DNA of 35,293 nt from Muribaculaceae bacterium (GTDB taxonomy: Bacteria; Bacteroidota; Bacteroidia; Bacteroidales; Muribaculaceae): assembly GCA_017620635.1 (NCBI GenBank), contig JAGAUV010000070.1, forward strand, positions 1-35,293, written 5' to 3'. The translations under genes and the position numbers were made by a program. Positions 16,522 through 23,979 of this stretch are shown one piece after another. Position 1 is the first letter of the stretch. Each line of letters begins with the position of its first letter. The notes below the pieces were generated by a model. The model worked only from the letters and a program-made list of their open reading frames with translations, did not search any database and had not been told where the DNA came from.

Positions 16522-18384
16522 CTACTTGTAGAGATCGCCCAAGGTAGAGCCCTCGTTATACTGCTGGTTATTAGGCAGAGAGGCATCGCCGACACCTTCG
16601 GCCATAAGTTTCTTCAGCTCGGGAAGATAACGCTGATAAAGCTGACGCGGCATTACGCCATGATCGTTGCATATCTTTGCCGCCATACCCACTACCTCGC
16701 CCAGTATGCCGGTGGTACGCATCACCCGGGTAGTTCCCAGCGCGATATGGGTAACACTGATATCGCGGCCTGCCATAAACAGATTGTCGACATTGCGCGA
16801 ATAAAGACAGCGGAACGGCACAGGATAAGGATGTATTACCTTGTGAATGGCTATCGACTTGAACTCGGCGTCGGGGAAGTGCACCGAGTTGATCGAGTCG
16901 GGGTAATGAAGATCTATCGACCATGTCGTGGCGCCGGTGGCATCCTCATGGGCCACATGCTTGATCAAATCGTCTTCTTTGAGCACATAGTCGCCAAGCA
17001 GTCGGCGCGACTCACGCTTGCCCGAGATGTAAGCCACCCAATCGAGTTTGCGGCAGGCGAAATCATCGCGTTTGCCGTAGCGGTTCTTAAGATATGACCA
17101 GTTGGAGTAGACCACCATAAGTCCGTAGTCGCGTATGCGCTCGAAATTCTCTATCTGGTTTACGTTCATACCTGTCTCCCAGGTCCATTCGCCCATGACC
17201 ACAGGTTCCGCCGACTCTTCGTTAAAATTCAGGCCATATTCAAATTCAGGGAATCTTACCGGCTTGTCGCTCTTTACCGAGTACCACTGCACCGAGGCCC
17301 CGAGAGTCAGACTGTCGGCCACTTCTGGCGCCGACGGTTCGCCATATTCACTGCGTGCCTCGCGGCCCATGCGCCAGTCGGCTCCGGCAAGAGCACCTAC
17401 ACTGCCGTCGCCCGTACAGTCAGCGAAGAGAGGCGCCGACAGACTTATACGGTCGCCGCTATTGATATGCTGTGCCGTTACCGACTTTATCCTGCCGTCG
17501 GCTGTCTCGGCGGCAATGACTCTGTACGACGGATAAAGAGTGATATTCTTCTCGGCATCGACAAAATCCTGTTTCTTATGATCCTCGTAGTAATCAGCAG
17601 GCTGCGCATTGCCCTGACGCAAGGGGCCGAACTCTTTCTGAAGGTCGCCCAGGCGTTTGTAAGGCCCGGCTTCGATACGGCCGCCGAGATGCACGCGAAT
17701 CTCTGAACTGTTGTTGCCGCCAAGCACAGGACGGTCATTCACAAGAGCCACCTTCTGGCCAAGACGAGCCGCCGACACTGCCGCGCTGATACCGGCAACA
17801 CCGCCGCCGACAACCACCAGATCATATCTCTCCTCGATATTCCGTACCGGATGAGGATCGACATCCTCTCTGAAACGAGCCAGAGCGTCGGCCTCCTCAG
17901 GCGGCACATCGCCCTCGTCGGTAAAATATACCGCATCGCAACGGCCGTCGAAGCCGCTGAGATCACGAAGCACCACCTTAGCCTGCTTTTTCGACTCGGG
18001 TATGTTTACCTCGCCGGCATACTGCCACATCCAGCGATCGCCCTCACAGCCCAGTTCGCCTCCAACATTTTTACCGTTGACAAGCAGACGGAAACGGCCC
18101 GGACCTTTCTTGTCGCTCCACGGCGAAGTCCAGTTGAACGTCCGCACATACACCTTATATCTGCCCTTGTGCGCAAAATCCACTGCCGTAGACGCATCAT
18201 CTACCGGCCGGCCCAAGCCATGGGCAAGCAGATAAGGCGAGCCCATCTTCTCCATAAACTGCTGGTCAGTGACCCAGCCGCCCTTATCGGTAAAACTTTC
18301 AGTCTCGATCAGAATCCTGTCGGCGCTCGCCGACGCTGCACCACCGAGAATAATAATAAATAATATTAGTCGTAACGCTTTCAT
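16522..18384 (-). CDS. Secreted FAD-dependent oxidoreductase with N-terminal carbohydrate-binding-like domain
   Basis: This 620-residue protein has a Sec signal peptide (about 1-20), a beta-sandwich domain resembling a carbohydrate-binding module (about 25-160) and a FAD-dependent oxidoreductase domain of the FAD_oxidored type (about 185-580). The dinucleotide motif VVVGGGVAG (about 190-198) and the flavin-proximal GGNNSSEIRVHLGG and MAGRDIS segments are clear. Such proteins are common in Bacteroidota glycan loci and often mislabelled xanthan lyase. The ATG at 18384 is chosen because it begins the signal peptide directly; another ATG at 18408 adds eight non-hydrophobic residues. The oxidised substrate, presumably a sugar or glycan part, is unknown. 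Confidence 0.87.
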   Translation of the reverse strand: MKALRLILFIIILGGAASASADRILIETESFTDKGGWVTDQQFMEKMGSPYLLAHGLGRPVDDASTAVDFAHKGRYKVYVRTFNWTSPWSDKKGPGRFRLLVNGKNVGGELGCEGDRWMWQYAGEVNIPESKKQAKVVLRDLSGFDGRCDAVYFTDEGDVPPEEADALARFREDVDPHPVRNIEERYDLVVVGGGVAGISAAVSAARLGQKVALVNDRPVLGGNNSSEIRVHLGGRIEAGPYKRLGDLQKEFGPLRQGNAQPADYYEDHKKQDFVDAEKNITLYPSYRVIAAETADGRIKSVTAQHINSGDRISLSAPLFADCTGDGSVGALAGADWRMGREARSEYGEPSAPEVADSLTLGASVQWYSVKSDKPVRFPEFEYGLNFNEESAEPVVMGEWTWETGMNVNQIENFERIRDYGLMVVYSNWSYLKNRYGKRDDFACRKLDWVAYISGKRESRRLLGDYVLKEDDLIKHVAHEDATGATTWSIDLHYPDSINSVHFPDAEFKSIAIHKVIHPYPVPFRCLYSRNVDNLFMAGRDISVTHIALGTTRVMRTTGILGEVVGMAAKICNDHGVMPRQLYQRYLPELKKLMAEGVGDASLPNNQQYNEGSTLGDLYK

Positions 18385-18424
18385 AATACACTCAGCGAAG
18401 ATACACATTTTTAATTACAATGTT

Positions 18425-18464: not shown

Positions 18465-19077
18465 ATGATACCGACAAGGACCGAAACAGAAACAGAACTT
18501 ATGAAAGCCCTGGCAGGAAACTCTGTCGATGCTTTCACTCTGATTTACAACATGTATATCAGGCAGCTCAGATCCTATGTCTATAACATGGTATCAGACT
18601 GGGAAGAGGTAGAGGATATCTTACAGGAAACATTCGCCAATCTATGGCGCTACCACGACAGGATAGACCCTGGTAAATCTCTGGCGACACTGCTTTTTAC
18701 AATAGCACGACGCCAGGCACTTAATTCTCTCCGCAACAGACGGATGTACGACTTTTCTATTGATTCATATTGCCCTCTGACCGAGAACTTCATGAACAAA
18801 GCTAACTCAAGCGCAAGAAATGGGAATGGGGGGGGTAAATACTTGGTTAACAACAGATTATATTTTGCACATCCTGGAATACCGGGAATTTGAGGCTGCG
18901 ACCGAACGAGCCATAAGGCGTCTGCCATTGAAGCAAAAAGAAATAGTCGAACTGCTCATACTCGACAAAGATATCAATCAGATTGCCGACACCCTCAATC
19001 TGAGCGTGAAAACTATACGCAACCTGCTCTCTGCGGCAAGAAAACAATTACGCTCTATCCTGACTCAACGTACCTGA
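18465..19077 (+). pseudogene. ECF-type RNA polymerase sigma factor split by a frameshift at a G8 tract
   Basis: An intact gene would encode about 203 residues. The first frame (18465-18893) holds sigma region 2, with the DILQETFANLWRYHDR core-binding segment and the LLFTIARRQALNSLRNR helix, then runs into a foreign tail and a stop at residue 142. The second frame (from 18820 to 19077) holds region 4, with RAIRRLPLKQKEIVELL and the helix-turn-helix INQIADTLNLSVKTIRNLL. The frames switch at eight G (18828-18835). One G fewer, or two more, joins them. Sequence quality in both halves is undamaged otherwise. No FecR-type anti-sigma gene is adjacent. It may be phase variable, a recent pseudogene or a base-calling error. 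Confidence 0.88.
18828..18835 (+). repeat. Homopolymer of eight G inside the sigma factor gene
   Basis: Eight consecutive G fall in the linker between sigma regions 2 and 4, preceded by TGGGAAT so that 11 of 14 bases are G. This is the exact point where the two reading frames must be joined, and is a classic slipped-strand site. Confidence 0.9.
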
Positions 19078-19154: not shown

Positions 19155-20855
19155 TTAGTAACCGGGATTCTGCTTCATATTCTTGTTGATAAGCACCTCA
19201 TTTGTCGGTATAGGCCAGAGATACTGACGGTCGTCCCAATTACGCTTGCTCATAAGATCGACGCATCCGGTAGCCGCCATATGCTCGAATGTAGGAATAC
19301 CGTTTTCATCGATTTCAGGATTGCAGGGCCAGAACCAGTTATCGTCGTCGACATTCTTTTTCTGTTTGGCCACATCGCGCGGATGAGCATACTCATTAGT
19401 ATACACCTGATCTGCGATACGCCAGCGCATGATGTCGGAGAAGCGGCGGTTCTCATTGGCAAATTCCATACGACGCTCCACCCTCAGCTGAGTACGCATC
19501 TTGGCCTGAGGCAATATTGTAAACTCAGGATAATTGTCGGTGTCCGATTTGTCTACACCATAAGCGCGTGCGCGCACTTCATTCATGGCGTCGATCACGC
19601 TTTGATCTATCTCGTTGAGTTCTATCTTTGCCTCAGCATACATCAGCAGGACATCGGCATAACGCATGTCTATCAGATCGTTTTCGGTCTTATAACCATT
19701 CTGTGTCCAGCTCTCATCCACACCTTTCTTCCACCCCAGACTGTTGAACGACGCATACTCGGCCACGCCGTGAGAGTCGGTATTCGAAACCATGCTGCCT
19801 GTATTATAATTCATGACCTGTGTGGTGTAAGGATTGGGGTCGAACACGACACCGAGGAACACAGAGCCGAAAGGTATAATAGTCTCACTCAGGCGAGGGT
19901 CGCGGTTCTTAAAAGGATCATGACAGTCGAAAAGCGGAGATTCGTCTACCGGCAGACCATCGGTACAGGTAAATGAGGCCAGCAGAGCCCACGACGGACA
20001 TTTGGCCATCCAGCCACCGCGAGTACGAGGCAAAACGTTCTGTGCAAGATACGATCCGACATACTGATCAAGCTCGATCGAACGGGGTATGGCAAATATA
20101 CGTTCAGGCGACTTGCGTGTGCTCGCATGGAAGAACTCGCCGAAATCGGGGTGTAAGGAATAAACACCCAGATCCATGCAATCCTTGGCTGCCTTTGCGG
20201 CAACGCTGAAATCTCCTAAATAGAGTGATGCACGGGCTTTATATGCCATTGCGGCACCCTTGGTGGCACGCACTTCTCCCGACGTAGTGGTAGGCAGTAG
20301 CTCTATGGCATCGTCGAAATCCTGATATATCTGTTTTATCACATCTGCTTTAGGAGTCCTGCCTTTAGTAAGTCCCTCTTCTATATTGATGTTGGTAAGG
20401 ATGAGAGGCACATCGCCGAATCGCGACACCAGCTTGAAATATGCAACTGCGCGTGCAAATTTCGTTTCGCCGATATACTGGTTTATCTTAGCCGGATTGG
20501 CTCCGTTCTCTATAGCACGGTCTACACTTTCGAGCACTGTATTGGTACGAGCAATAAGCTTATACTGGTTGTTCCACAGCGTCGACACAATGCCGCTCTG
20601 GCCATTGAGCACACCACGCTCTATCTCCGACGGTTCCTGACGGCGCATGCCGTCGTCACTCCAATCGTGGTTATCATCTCCGTCCTGACCCCAGAAGTCG
20701 ATCTTGTAGAAGTTGTTGACCGACATCCTTATTTCGTTTTCGTTGGAATACCAGCTCTCCGAAGAGCCCTGAGACAGTGGAGTGAGGTCGAGATCGTGAC
20801 AGGAGGCAAACGATACTCCCATCGCTGCCAATATCATAAACTTTAGTAATTTCAT
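19155..20855 (-). CDS. SusD/RagB-family surface glycan-binding lipoprotein
   Basis: This 566-residue lipoprotein binds glycan at the cell surface and forms the lid over its SusC partner. The signal peptide ends in FASC with lipidated Cys19, followed by HDLDLTPLS, the typical SusD start. Tetratricopeptide-like helices (about 90-240) include the FARAVAYFKLVSRFGDVPLI segment, and the C-terminus has the LRVERRMEFANENRRFSDIMRW motif. The ATG at 20855 is chosen for the lipoprotein signal, 13 nt after the susC stop; upstream in-frame codons overlap susC. The ligand cannot be read from sequence. Confidence 0.95.
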   Translation of the reverse strand: MKLLKFMILAAMGVSFASCHDLDLTPLSQGSSESWYSNENEIRMSVNNFYKIDFWGQDGDDNHDWSDDGMRRQEPSEIERGVLNGQSGIVSTLWNNQYKLIARTNTVLESVDRAIENGANPAKINQYIGETKFARAVAYFKLVSRFGDVPLILTNINIEEGLTKGRTPKADVIKQIYQDFDDAIELLPTTTSGEVRATKGAAMAYKARASLYLGDFSVAAKAAKDCMDLGVYSLHPDFGEFFHASTRKSPERIFAIPRSIELDQYVGSYLAQNVLPRTRGGWMAKCPSWALLASFTCTDGLPVDESPLFDCHDPFKNRDPRLSETIIPFGSVFLGVVFDPNPYTTQVMNYNTGSMVSNTDSHGVAEYASFNSLGWKKGVDESWTQNGYKTENDLIDMRYADVLLMYAEAKIELNEIDQSVIDAMNEVRARAYGVDKSDTDNYPEFTILPQAKMRTQLRVERRMEFANENRRFSDIMRWRIADQVYTNEYAHPRDVAKQKKNVDDDNWFWPCNPEIDENGIPTFEHMAATGCVDLMSKRNWDDRQYLWPIPTNEVLINKNMKQNPGY

Positions 20856-20868
20856 GGATAGTCTGTAG

Positions 20869-23800
20869 TTAGAATTTAACATTGGCGCCAATCAGGAATG
20901 ATTTTGTAATCGGGTAGCTGCCGGCTCCCTGTTCGGGATCCCAGCCCTTGGGATGATTGCCAAATGTAAGGAAATCTGTACCGGTTACATATACCCGGAG
21001 AGTCTGAATACCGGCTACACGGGTTATACGGTTGGGCAGCGTATAGCCGAGTGTAAGGTTCTTGAGTCGCAGGTAATGGCCGTTATAGAGCCAGTAGTCC
21101 GAAGTCGTCGTATTGTTGCCGAGATTCGATGATGTAAGACGGGGGAAGAACACTCCGTTATTCTGCTCGGCTGTGTTGTTGGCACTCCAGTAGTTGCCCT
21201 CAAGCAGTGTCGGGAAGTTGAGCCAGTTCTCGCTGTAGCCTACCCACTGGTTGTAATGATACATGCGGTTCCATTTACCCACGCCCTGGAATGCGAAATT
21301 CAGGTCGAAATCTTTCCACTGCACGCTACCGCCAAATCCATAAGAGAAACGGGGAAGCGATCCGCCAAGAAGTACTCGGTCATATTCAGGCGAGATAACA
21401 CCGTCGGGCACTCCGTCCGGACCTGAGATATCCTTGTACTTGATATCGCCGGGACGCGTGTTTTTGTTGAGCAGCGCCGAATTATCGATCTCTTCCTGAG
21501 TCTGGAACAGTCCGTCGCTCAGATAACCGTACCATTCGTTAAATTCCGAGCCCTCCATTTTTACCTGACTGCCGAGGAACTGAGTACCGTTGAGATCGCC
21601 CATCTTAGATTTGAAATCCGATACGTTGGCAGAAACCGAATAGCTGACTTCGCCTATCTTGTCCATCCAGCCTAATTCAAGATCCCAGCCGTTGGTATGC
21701 ATGCGGCCGGCGTTGACCTGAGGATTTGCATAACCGATAAATTTCGGTATCTCAAGGGCAAGGAGCATATCCTTGGTATTCTTGCGATAATACTCGAAGC
21801 TCGCGCGCAGACGGCTGTTGAGGAAATAGGCATCAAAGCCGACATTCCACGACTCGGTCGTTTCCCATGTGATATCAGGCACTGCATATGTTTCCTGTCC
21901 GGCTACCTGATATGAAATAGGCTGTCCGTTCTTGTCCAGGAAGATAGCATTGCGATAGACGATAGTGGCCTGATAAGGATACCAGCTGCCGAGACGCTCG
22001 TTGCCAAGGCGGCCCCACGAACCACGAAGCTTTAAATAATTGAACCAGCTCATATTGGCCTTTTCCCAGAATTTCTCCTGCGAGAGAATCCAGCCTACCG
22101 ACACAGAGGGGAAGTTGGCCCAGCGGTTGCTCTTGGAAAAGCGGCTTGAACCGTCGCGGCGGAAATTGAACTGCACCAGATAGCGATGGTCGAAGTTGTA
22201 GTTGGCACGGCCAAAGACAGAGTGATAGGCACCATTTGTCTTGCTACCGTAGTTGGAGCGGAATTCCTTGGAACCAAGGTCGAGATAAGGATAGTCGTGA
22301 AGCTCGTAAGCATCGCGGCCGGCTCCCATGACCTCCCAGTCGCCATACCAGTCCTCATAGCCTACCATGGCAGAGACATCATGCTTGCCGAAAGTATTGT
22401 TGTAGTTGGCAAAGAACTGCGTGGTAATTTCGTAATCGTTGTTGCGCACCTCGCGAAGCGTGGTCTGGGCAAAACCGCCCTGATAGCCGGCGACGACACC
22501 GGGTGCCGATTCGACTGAATAAGGTACCTGACGGACAAAATTCTTTGTTTGCGTAGTATTCCACTGCGGAGCTACGACACCCGATATCACAAGGCCTTCG
22601 AAGGGACGGATATCGATACCGAGACGTCCCTGCACGCGCTGATAGATTGTTTCGGAAGAGCCGCCATCTTCAAGTTTGGCTATAGGGTTCTCTCCGCTCT
22701 TTACATCACACCAGCTGCCGTCGGCCCACTTGACGCCATATATAGGCGGCATGGCGAGATAGTGCATGTCGAGAGGATTGATCTGGGCATTCTTGATATG
22801 ACTGCGCTGGAAGAAGAAATCGAGATGCGACGAGATATATTTATTGATATCATAGTCGGTGTTGCTACGCACGTTCATACGCTTGAAGTCTTTGTTCTTG
22901 TAGAAACCGTCGTGATCGTCGAAACGCAACGATGAAGTGTTACGTATTTTCTCTCCGCCGCCCGATATGGTAAGTGTGTGCACCATTCGGGTAGAGGTGT
23001 CGTCTATCATAAGCGAACGCCAATCGGTGTTGGGATATTTGATAGGATCATTAGCGTTGTTCTCCCAATATTTGTCGATATGTTCCTGACCGTAGACCTG
23101 GTTCCAGCCGGCTGCCGGGTTATCGTTGTAGCGCAGCTCGTTGGCCATCTCCATAAAACGTGTGGCATCCACAAATGTGTTCTTATAGGTCTGCTTGCTC
23201 CAGCCGTATTCAAAATTATAGCTGAGATTGATGGTGCCGCTTTTGGCTCGTTTGGTAGTAACAAGGATAACACCCGATGCTGCACGCGAACCATAGATCG
23301 CAGCCGAAGCTGCATCCTTGAGCACAGAGATCGACTCTACATCGTCGGGGTTGACTGTATTTATATTTCCCGGAACACCATCGATAAGCACCAAGGGGCT
23401 CGAATCATTGATTGTGGTAATACCGCGCACCTTGATATCGCCGCCGGCATCCGGGTTGCCGCTCGAACGCGTCACTGTCACGCCCGACATCGTACCCTGC
23501 AGCGCTTCCGACAATGTGGTCGCGCGGCGCGATGCCACCTGCTCGGCACTCGCGGTTGCGATAGAGCCTGTAAGATCGCCCTTTCGCTGTGTGCTATAGC
23601 CGACCACAACAACCTCGTCGAGATTAAAATTGCTCGGTTCGAGGCTGATTGTCATCGCCTTGCCCGGAACAGCTTCTACTATCTGCATCTTGCAGCCTAC
23701 ATACGAAATTTCAAGTCGGGCCCCCTTTGGAACCTTGATGGAGAACTTACCGTCGACGTCGGTAGTAGTGCCGAGCTGCTCGCCGGCTACCTTTACAGAC

Positions 23801-23979
23801 GCACCGATAATCGGCTCTCCATTGAGATCTGTAACTGTGCCTTCGATCACGCTTGCTGTCTGCGTATCGGCTACGGATGCTTCGGCCGGTCCGGCTGTTG
23901 AGCCTGCATGTGAATGCAACGGAGCCGCCACCGCCATTACGCTCATTAGGAACGCACAGCTGATTAGTCGTTTGTACAT
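20869..23979 (-). CDS. SusC/RagA-family TonB-dependent outer-membrane transporter
   Basis: This 1036-residue transporter imports oligosaccharides across the outer membrane using TonB energy. It has a signal peptide (about 1-26), a carboxypeptidase-regulatory-like domain (about 43-120, VIEGTVTDLNGEPIIGASVKV), the TonB-box region DEVVVVGYSTQ, a plug domain (about 135-245, with VRGITTINDSSPLVLIDG and SVLKDAASAAIYGSRAASG) and a 22-strand barrel ending in an aromatic C-terminal residue (FLIGANVKF). There is no N-terminal STN signalling domain, so it is not built to drive an anti-sigma factor. It follows the 823-residue protein gene by 27 nt. Confidence 0.96.
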   Translation of the reverse strand: MYKRLISCAFLMSVMAVAAPLHSHAGSTAGPAEASVADTQTASVIEGTVTDLNGEPIIGASVKVAGEQLGTTTDVDGKFSIKVPKGARLEISYVGCKMQIVEAVPGKAMTISLEPSNFNLDEVVVVGYSTQRKGDLTGSIATASAEQVASRRATTLSEALQGTMSGVTVTRSSGNPDAGGDIKVRGITTINDSSPLVLIDGVPGNINTVNPDDVESISVLKDAASAAIYGSRAASGVILVTTKRAKSGTINLSYNFEYGWSKQTYKNTFVDATRFMEMANELRYNDNPAAGWNQVYGQEHIDKYWENNANDPIKYPNTDWRSLMIDDTSTRMVHTLTISGGGEKIRNTSSLRFDDHDGFYKNKDFKRMNVRSNTDYDINKYISSHLDFFFQRSHIKNAQINPLDMHYLAMPPIYGVKWADGSWCDVKSGENPIAKLEDGGSSETIYQRVQGRLGIDIRPFEGLVISGVVAPQWNTTQTKNFVRQVPYSVESAPGVVAGYQGGFAQTTLREVRNNDYEITTQFFANYNNTFGKHDVSAMVGYEDWYGDWEVMGAGRDAYELHDYPYLDLGSKEFRSNYGSKTNGAYHSVFGRANYNFDHRYLVQFNFRRDGSSRFSKSNRWANFPSVSVGWILSQEKFWEKANMSWFNYLKLRGSWGRLGNERLGSWYPYQATIVYRNAIFLDKNGQPISYQVAGQETYAVPDITWETTESWNVGFDAYFLNSRLRASFEYYRKNTKDMLLALEIPKFIGYANPQVNAGRMHTNGWDLELGWMDKIGEVSYSVSANVSDFKSKMGDLNGTQFLGSQVKMEGSEFNEWYGYLSDGLFQTQEEIDNSALLNKNTRPGDIKYKDISGPDGVPDGVISPEYDRVLLGGSLPRFSYGFGGSVQWKDFDLNFAFQGVGKWNRMYHYNQWVGYSENWLNFPTLLEGNYWSANNTAEQNNGVFFPRLTSSNLGNNTTTSDYWLYNGHYLRLKNLTLGYTLPNRITRVAGIQTLRVYVTGTDFLTFGNHPKGWDPEQGAGSYPITKSFLIGANVKF

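Follow-up and report, generated by a model that had tools for sequence, protein, structure and literature searches.

Positions 18465-19077 on the plus strand of the 35,293-nucleotide window (the whole stretch of DNA analysed, which is one entire contig of a Muribaculaceae assembly of 2,195,094 bases in 77 contigs at 88.6% completeness) encode a Bacteroidetes-type ECF sigma factor whose two halves lie in different reading frames, with the frame changing at a run of eight consecutive G (G8). The reading that we put forward, which we judge the likeliest of those considered though short of probable, is that the orphan gene encodes an entire ECF sigma factor of the TIGR02985 type, that slippage at the G tract in its linker switches it ON and OFF, and that the assembly caught it OFF. 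The proposal starts from what is directly established, namely the anatomy of the gene, the coincidence of the frame change with the tract, the absence of other damage to the gene, and a separate class of runs of eight or more G (G8+) in the source genome that also splits a second gene. From these observations we infer variation of the tract in the population, reversibility of the change, activity of the joined protein and whatever the sigma factor may control.

Table 1. Features of the sigma factor gene and its neighbourhood in the window
Feature	Coordinates	Strand	Evidence and remarks
Upstream ORF, region 2 and linker	18465..18893	+	142 aa at G8; Pfam Sigma70_r2 (PF04542) 9.9e-16
Region 4 ORF	18820..19077	+	85 aa from ATG 18820; Pfam Sigma70_r4_2 (PF08281) 7.1e-11
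Linker G8 tract, between region 2 and region 4; frame changes here	18828..18835	+	Sequence
TAA abutting the 3' end of the tract	18836..18838	+	Ends the main frame at G6 and G9, and the ORF from ATG 18820 at G7 and G10
FAD-dependent oxidoreductase	16522..18408	-	Pfam FAD_oxidored 1.8e-72; divergent from sigma gene; positional neighbour only
SusD-family protein	19155..20891	-	Pfam SusD_RagB 1.2e-51; convergent with sigma gene; positional neighbour only
SusC/RagA TonB-dependent transporter	20869..23979	-	TIGR04056 1.2e-281; Pfam Plug, CarbopepD_reg_2

Besides the two Pfam domains, the TIGR02985 model (short name Sig70_bacteroi1, a sigma-70 subfamily) matches the region 2 half at model positions 2-74 of 162 and the region 4 half, in the other frame, at positions 98-161, so that the two matches are adjacent and do not overlap; scored separately, the pieces reach 61.1 and 44.5 bits, both below the whole-protein cut-off of 126.4. 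Both domains of a Bacteroidetes ECF sigma factor are therefore present, and the single continuous polypeptide that would carry them is interrupted by the frame change at G8. These matches bear out the original prediction, made from the letters of the DNA, that two preserved halves of a sigma factor lie in different frames and that the change falls exactly on eight G. No second lesion was found in the sigma gene by script, the joined sequence running for 203 codons without a further stop, and GC content by codon position in the region 4 half, read in its own frame (0.51/0.34/0.47, against 0.53/0.39/0.56 in the SusD gene), retains a coding-like base pattern. As in SSR contingency genes, the frame is set by the length of a repeat tract within the gene, and the gene is otherwise intact. 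Its G8 is the longest G/C run of the window, the next being one C6. The two adjacent matches to one sigma model, combined with the lack of a second lesion, argue for the contingency switch.

Varying the tract length by script gave products of 203 aa at G7 and 204 aa at G10, the two lengths at which the region 4 frame is joined to region 2, and products of 142 aa at G8, 124 aa at G9 and 123 aa at G6. The claim that removing one G or adding two would restore a protein of about 203 residues is thus correct, as is the claim that the G8 product lacks region 4, since the upstream ORF carries the Sigma70_r2 match and region 4 lies in the other frame. Under the proposed mechanism, replication slippage from G8 to G7 or G10 would restore the joined frame and turn the sigma factor ON, whereas G8 or G9 would break the frame and leave it OFF. 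Cells would then turn the sigma factor ON and OFF randomly, the OFF state being the one present in the assembly.

The same tract also governs an internal start. Among lengths G6 to G11, the region 4 frame can be read from ATG 18820 at just two, G8 (giving 85 aa) and G11 (giving 86 aa), in agreement with the suggestion that this codon could open region 4 alone; at G7 the same ATG yields 5 aa, closed by the TAA directly after the tract. That only G8, among G6 to G10, opens this frame would suit a two-subunit sigma factor in which G8 is the working state and regions 2 (142 aa) and 4 (85 aa, from ATG 18820) are made as overlapping polypeptides, an arrangement with a counterpart in SigO-RsoA of B. 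subtilis, whose sigma4 and sigma2 domains are placed on separate proteins in a section of PMC8103513. We consider this very unlikely, as the region 2 ORF ends at G8 in an unrelated out-of-frame tail and no two-frame split between regions 2 and 4 occurs among the listed genus and family matches outside the source genome. Transcriptional slippage or ribosomal frameshifting at G8 could instead provide some full-length protein, keeping the gene always partly ON. RNA polymerase slippage would be in keeping with eight G that lead into the correct frame, but we regard this explanation as highly improbable.

The sigma factor has no close relative in the genomes searched. The best-scoring matches are 34% identical among the 48 other genomes of the genus and, over region 2, 40% identical among the 396 others of the family, while none in the order reached E 1e-18 among 392 other genomes; no ortholog above about 40% identity was found in these overlapping sets. 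A pattern scan of GTDB contigs returned no relative of the sigma factor and one exact-pattern scan of viral contigs returned no match, both scans being of a kind that may leave out near records of the source genome, and a plasmid search likewise gave no match. The homolog alignment comprised 21 rows, 12 of them informative, the 9 minus-strand loci not having been turned and being unusable. In this alignment the G8 tract maps to the linker, which is variable, between the domains, and G/C runs in the 12 usable homolog genes do not exceed 6. About 13 residues of the joined protein, beside the tract, are missing from most of these 12 homologs; these extra residues make the linker unusual and leave the ancestral frame right at the tract unconfirmed by homology, a point that weighs against the contingency switch.

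Such an isolated gene might also have suffered a frameshift that became fixed recently; it would then be an orphan that the cell can do without, perhaps gained by horizontal transfer, and would be turning into a pseudogene without adaptive switching. The absence of a close ortholog in the genus and of any counterpart at this place in two orthologous loci is in keeping with this, as is the G+C content of the sigma gene (0.45, below the 0.53 of the window), and even in a neutral gene the G tract would be the likeliest site of a first frameshift. The 203 codons free of any other lesion speak against it, as does the retention of the tract by a genome that otherwise avoids G7, and we hold this explanation to be unlikely.

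The sigma gene stands alone between the divergent FAD oxidoreductase gene and the convergent SusD gene. Orthologous oxidoreductase/SusD/SusC loci are found in two congeners (G007 and G018) at 45-59% identity, and neither has a sigma gene at the corresponding place. A sigma-FecR pair does lie near the orthologous locus of G018 (L073), but that sigma factor is only 22% identical to the one in the window. Of 26 other window genes scanned with Pfam, 25 match a family, the exception being an 823-aa neighbour of SusC; no FecR domain was detected at E 0.001, and an informal look at the same genes revealed no other broken gene. At its N-terminus the window SusC is about 90 residues shorter than both orthologs, its CarbopepD_reg_2 domain beginning at residue 45 as against 132-133, and the extra N-terminal part of one ortholog gives a weak FecR_C match below cut-off. 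The window thus contains neither the adjacent anti-sigma gene nor the SusC with an N-terminal signalling domain that define a sigma/FecR anti-sigma/SusC trans-envelope system. Because there is no FecR match, SusC is N-terminally short and the sigma gene has the FAD oxidoreductase and SusD as neighbours, a classical sigma/anti-sigma/SusC relay is not seen, and the link between the sigma factor and the adjoining SusC/D locus is weak and positional only. The original prediction of a slipped-strand switch for a regulon beside SusC/D accordingly divides in two: the switch itself gains from the sound halves, the break at the tract, the separate G8+ class and other split genes, whereas the SusC/D regulon fares poorly in the face of two orthologous loci devoid of the sigma gene, 26 genes without FecR and a short SusC.

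Run lengths in the source genome place the tract in an unusual class. By the expectation from dinucleotide shuffles of the window (a mean of 2.96 G7 matches, with 2 observed), runs of at least seven G are not rare. Exact counts over the 2.2 Mb genome are 67 for G6, 3 for G7 and 8 for G8 or longer (five G8, two G9 and one G11), so that the genome avoids G7, which is compatible with the shuffle result in the window. A geometric tail fitted to G6 and G7 (ratio 0.045) predicts 0.14 G8+ runs against the 8 observed (P = 3e-12); the probability of eight such runs becomes 5e-4 at a tail ratio of 0.15 and 0.20 at 0.25. The G8+ tracts of the source genome therefore look like a class separate from the normal run-length distribution. 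Homopolymer positions were listed in 328,681 bases of the MAG.

Three of the eight G8+ tracts are genic, splitting the sigma factor gene and an acyltransferase gene and lying in frame in the gene for a 791-aa protein. The acyltransferase-3 gene (contig C21, L091 3754-4906, minus strand) is split at a G9, with PF01757 matches at 3-257 and 271-323 occurring in order in two frames. In its G002 ortholog (64% identical) the frame is open and the stretch retrieved contains no G/C run reaching 6, and the acyltransferase tract is therefore lineage-specific. In the 791-aa protein (contig C31, L092 4016-4023) a G8 near the start is in frame; the protein looks, by eye, like an outer-membrane protein, matches no Pfam family even at E 10 and has no close ortholog, the 48 other genomes of the genus yielding a single match, at 22%. 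Two intergenic tracts precede TAnnTTTG, which we take to be the Bacteroidetes -7 box: a G9 on contig C57 (L094 4054-4062) lies 23 nt before this motif, followed by a GH43 lipoprotein and SusC-type pair starting 136 nt downstream, and a G8 on contig C17 (L090 4034-4041) lies 19 nt before it, followed by a putative lipoprotein starting 174 nt downstream. The remaining G8+ tracts are located near a tRNA-Val gene (C43) and between convergent genes (two on C74). The excess of G8+ runs and the splitting of the acyltransferase gene at one of them favour a contingency locus, but such an excess could also arise from mutational expansion in tolerated places.

At least one run of G8 or longer is present in all 49 genus genomes, source included. 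Matches to GGGGGGGG are distributed very unevenly among them, from 3 (G005) to 440 (G027), a long tract being counted several times. The first eight relatives served as the congener sample, in which 68 distinct tracts, 8 to 16 bases long, were counted by hand and 63 were fetched, the five near contig ends being left out. Frames were read by eye in 22 tract-strand cases, and the split and in-frame tracts given here are clearly genic examples rather than a full count; ambiguous tracts (such as L135, L136, L155, L161, L165, L177 and L180) were placed in neither list. A codon-usage score tried as an automatic classifier missed the sigma gene itself, among others, and was dropped, while a rule taking the longest open frame on each side called polA (L132) split when it is in frame.

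Four clearly genic tracts split their genes, in three of the eight congeners (G002, G004 and G007). In G007, a CotH protein is cut at a C10 shortly past its signal peptide and a protein kinase is cut at a C10 before its C-terminal part or extension (L172 1833-3400 and L173 1588-2938). In G004 (L150 926-2745), a C8 separates a TPR protein from its membrane segment and from a C-terminus that matches GerE/LuxR weakly (E 4e-4, short of the curated cut-off); this is a second regulator cut by a homopolymer, here between its TPR portion and the putative DNA-binding portion. The fourth is a DUF3109 gene of G002, presumably a housekeeping gene, which is split at G8 and of which both pieces match. Five further genic tracts are in frame: two in G001, within polA (DNA polymerase I, L132 193-2973, G8) and a BioG/methyltransferase gene; two in G003, within a TolQ/ExbB-like gene (near the start, a later start being possible) and the gene of a secreted protein; and one in G008, at the C-terminus of an fn3-containing protein. 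In G003:C49 (L145), a G13 is found together with its flank to either side of an N gap, an assembly artefact at a long tract.

The split TPR-GerE/LuxR-like regulator, protein kinase, CotH protein and DUF3109 gene extend to congeners the arrangement expected of the contingency switch; the DUF3109 case also counts against it, since it indicates that sporadic loss or error happens at such tracts, and the duplicated G13 that long tracts trouble assemblies. Both bear on the most serious rival, already named as the main one in the original prediction and still to be taken seriously, which is an assembly or sequencing error over a true G7 in an intact sigma gene. Homopolymer indels are a classic error, the assembly is in 77 contigs at 88.6% completeness, a likely housekeeping gene is likewise split at G8 in another genome, and these two congener cases indicate that tract indels in MAGs can be accidental. 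Pointing the other way, G001 (polA and the BioG/methyltransferase gene) and G003 (before or in the start of the TolQ/ExbB-like gene) keep G8 or G9 in frame, which shows that such lengths do not invariably lead to misreading; moreover, two of the three genic G8+ tracts of the source genome would need to be wrong. On this evidence we regard an error as rather unlikely, though by no means negligible.

We pooled the 8 tracts of the source genome with the 63 fetched from congeners and, after dropping 3 with N in their flanks, analysed 68 of the 71. AT-rich flanks were present in 21 of the 68. A putative secreted, membrane or lipoprotein ORF, called by a crude script rule, starts 50-200 nt downstream on the G strand in 10 of the 21 tracts with AT-rich flanks as against 3 of the 47 others, and on the C strand in 3 of the 21 and in 3 of those 47; the intergenic tracts thus show no significant preference for one strand (10 versus 3, P = 0.09), which detracts from the contingency reading. 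TAnnTTTG occurs 10-39 nt after the tract in 11 matches on 10 tracts (140 tract-strand combinations). The G strand holds 9 of these matches, and one, surely by chance, is on the C strand of the sigma tract itself; equal bins upstream of the tracts hold 3, and one single bin elsewhere (70-79) also reaches 4. Nine tracts have the motif 18-34 nt after them on the G strand. The placement of these boxes is suggestive only, and the tract pattern of the genus looks, by its sequence, like the anatomy of contingency loci. It is possible, though on balance doubtful, that these tracts form a genus-wide contingency system based on poly-G, which would add to DNA inversion another type of phase variation, and in which G8-16 tracts would lie near the -7-type boxes (TAnnTTTG) of secreted, membrane and lipoprotein genes and inside regulators and surface genes, would be rare and set apart in the source species, and in one instance would put an ECF sigma factor, and hence a regulon, under random ON/OFF control.

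If the sigma tract varies in real populations, gut Bacteroidales could bet-hedge whole regulons by slippage, which tools directed at inversions only would miss, and seemingly broken regulators in MAGs of Muribaculaceae would need a check of tract length before being labelled pseudogenes. DNA inversion is the mechanism for which gut Bacteroidales are known: a 2025 review covering Bacteroides fragilis and B. thetaiotaomicron describes DNA inversions, and the terms 'slipped' and 'homopolymer' are absent from its main text (PMC12632263). Poly-G tracts of 7 and/or 8 are given as overrepresented in only 9 of the genomes analysed in PMC2831843, the main text of which mentions neither Bacteroides nor Bacteroidetes. 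Outside the Bacteroidales, a putative phase variation mechanism, unspecified in the part of the article concerned, is put forward for adhesin genes of Ornithobacterium hominis (PMC13183296). A search of titles and abstract openings of top-ranked matches in the open-access literature found no report of a homopolymer-switched ECF sigma factor or Muribaculaceae gene.

Poly-G tracts are an established site of phase variation in Campylobacter and Neisseria, and Helicobacter has contingency loci of the same kind. The sigma gene resembles these loci in having an in-gene G/C homopolymer with a length-dependent frame, in a genome with few such tracts, several of them in or before surface-related genes; it differs in that the tract lies in an ECF sigma gene and is known from one assembled length. 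A precedent for the proposed switch in a regulator gene is the C8 tract of mga in Streptococcus pyogenes, where, according to PMC10330708, switching is reversible, slippage by one base alters target expression, and Mga functions with a C8 or C6 tract but loses its function with C7, the size change falling at its C-terminus. Both genes encode transcription regulators and carry an 8-base homopolymer, but Mga works at C8, whereas the sigma factor is broken at G8, has its tract between two sigma domains and is known here from sequence alone. The frameshift phase variation that Stibitz described in 1989 in Bordetella pertussis reportedly concerns the regulator bvgS. A table in PMC11868660 lists this frameshift phase variation and credits it to Stibitz 1989. 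The likeness would be frameshift phase variation of a regulator, in another regulator class and another organism. SigO-RsoA likewise has regions 2 and 4 on separate polypeptides, in a fixed two-protein arrangement, whereas in the window it is the length of the tract that decides whether the protein is split, and the split probably abolishes function. Within the Bacteroidales, work by Nakayama-Imaohji in 2009 is said to have described invertase-driven phase variation of SusC/SusD in Bacteroides fragilis. That system shares with the switch proposed here random ON/OFF variation in this order with SusC/D-type proteins, but its mechanism is site-specific inversion, not tract slippage.
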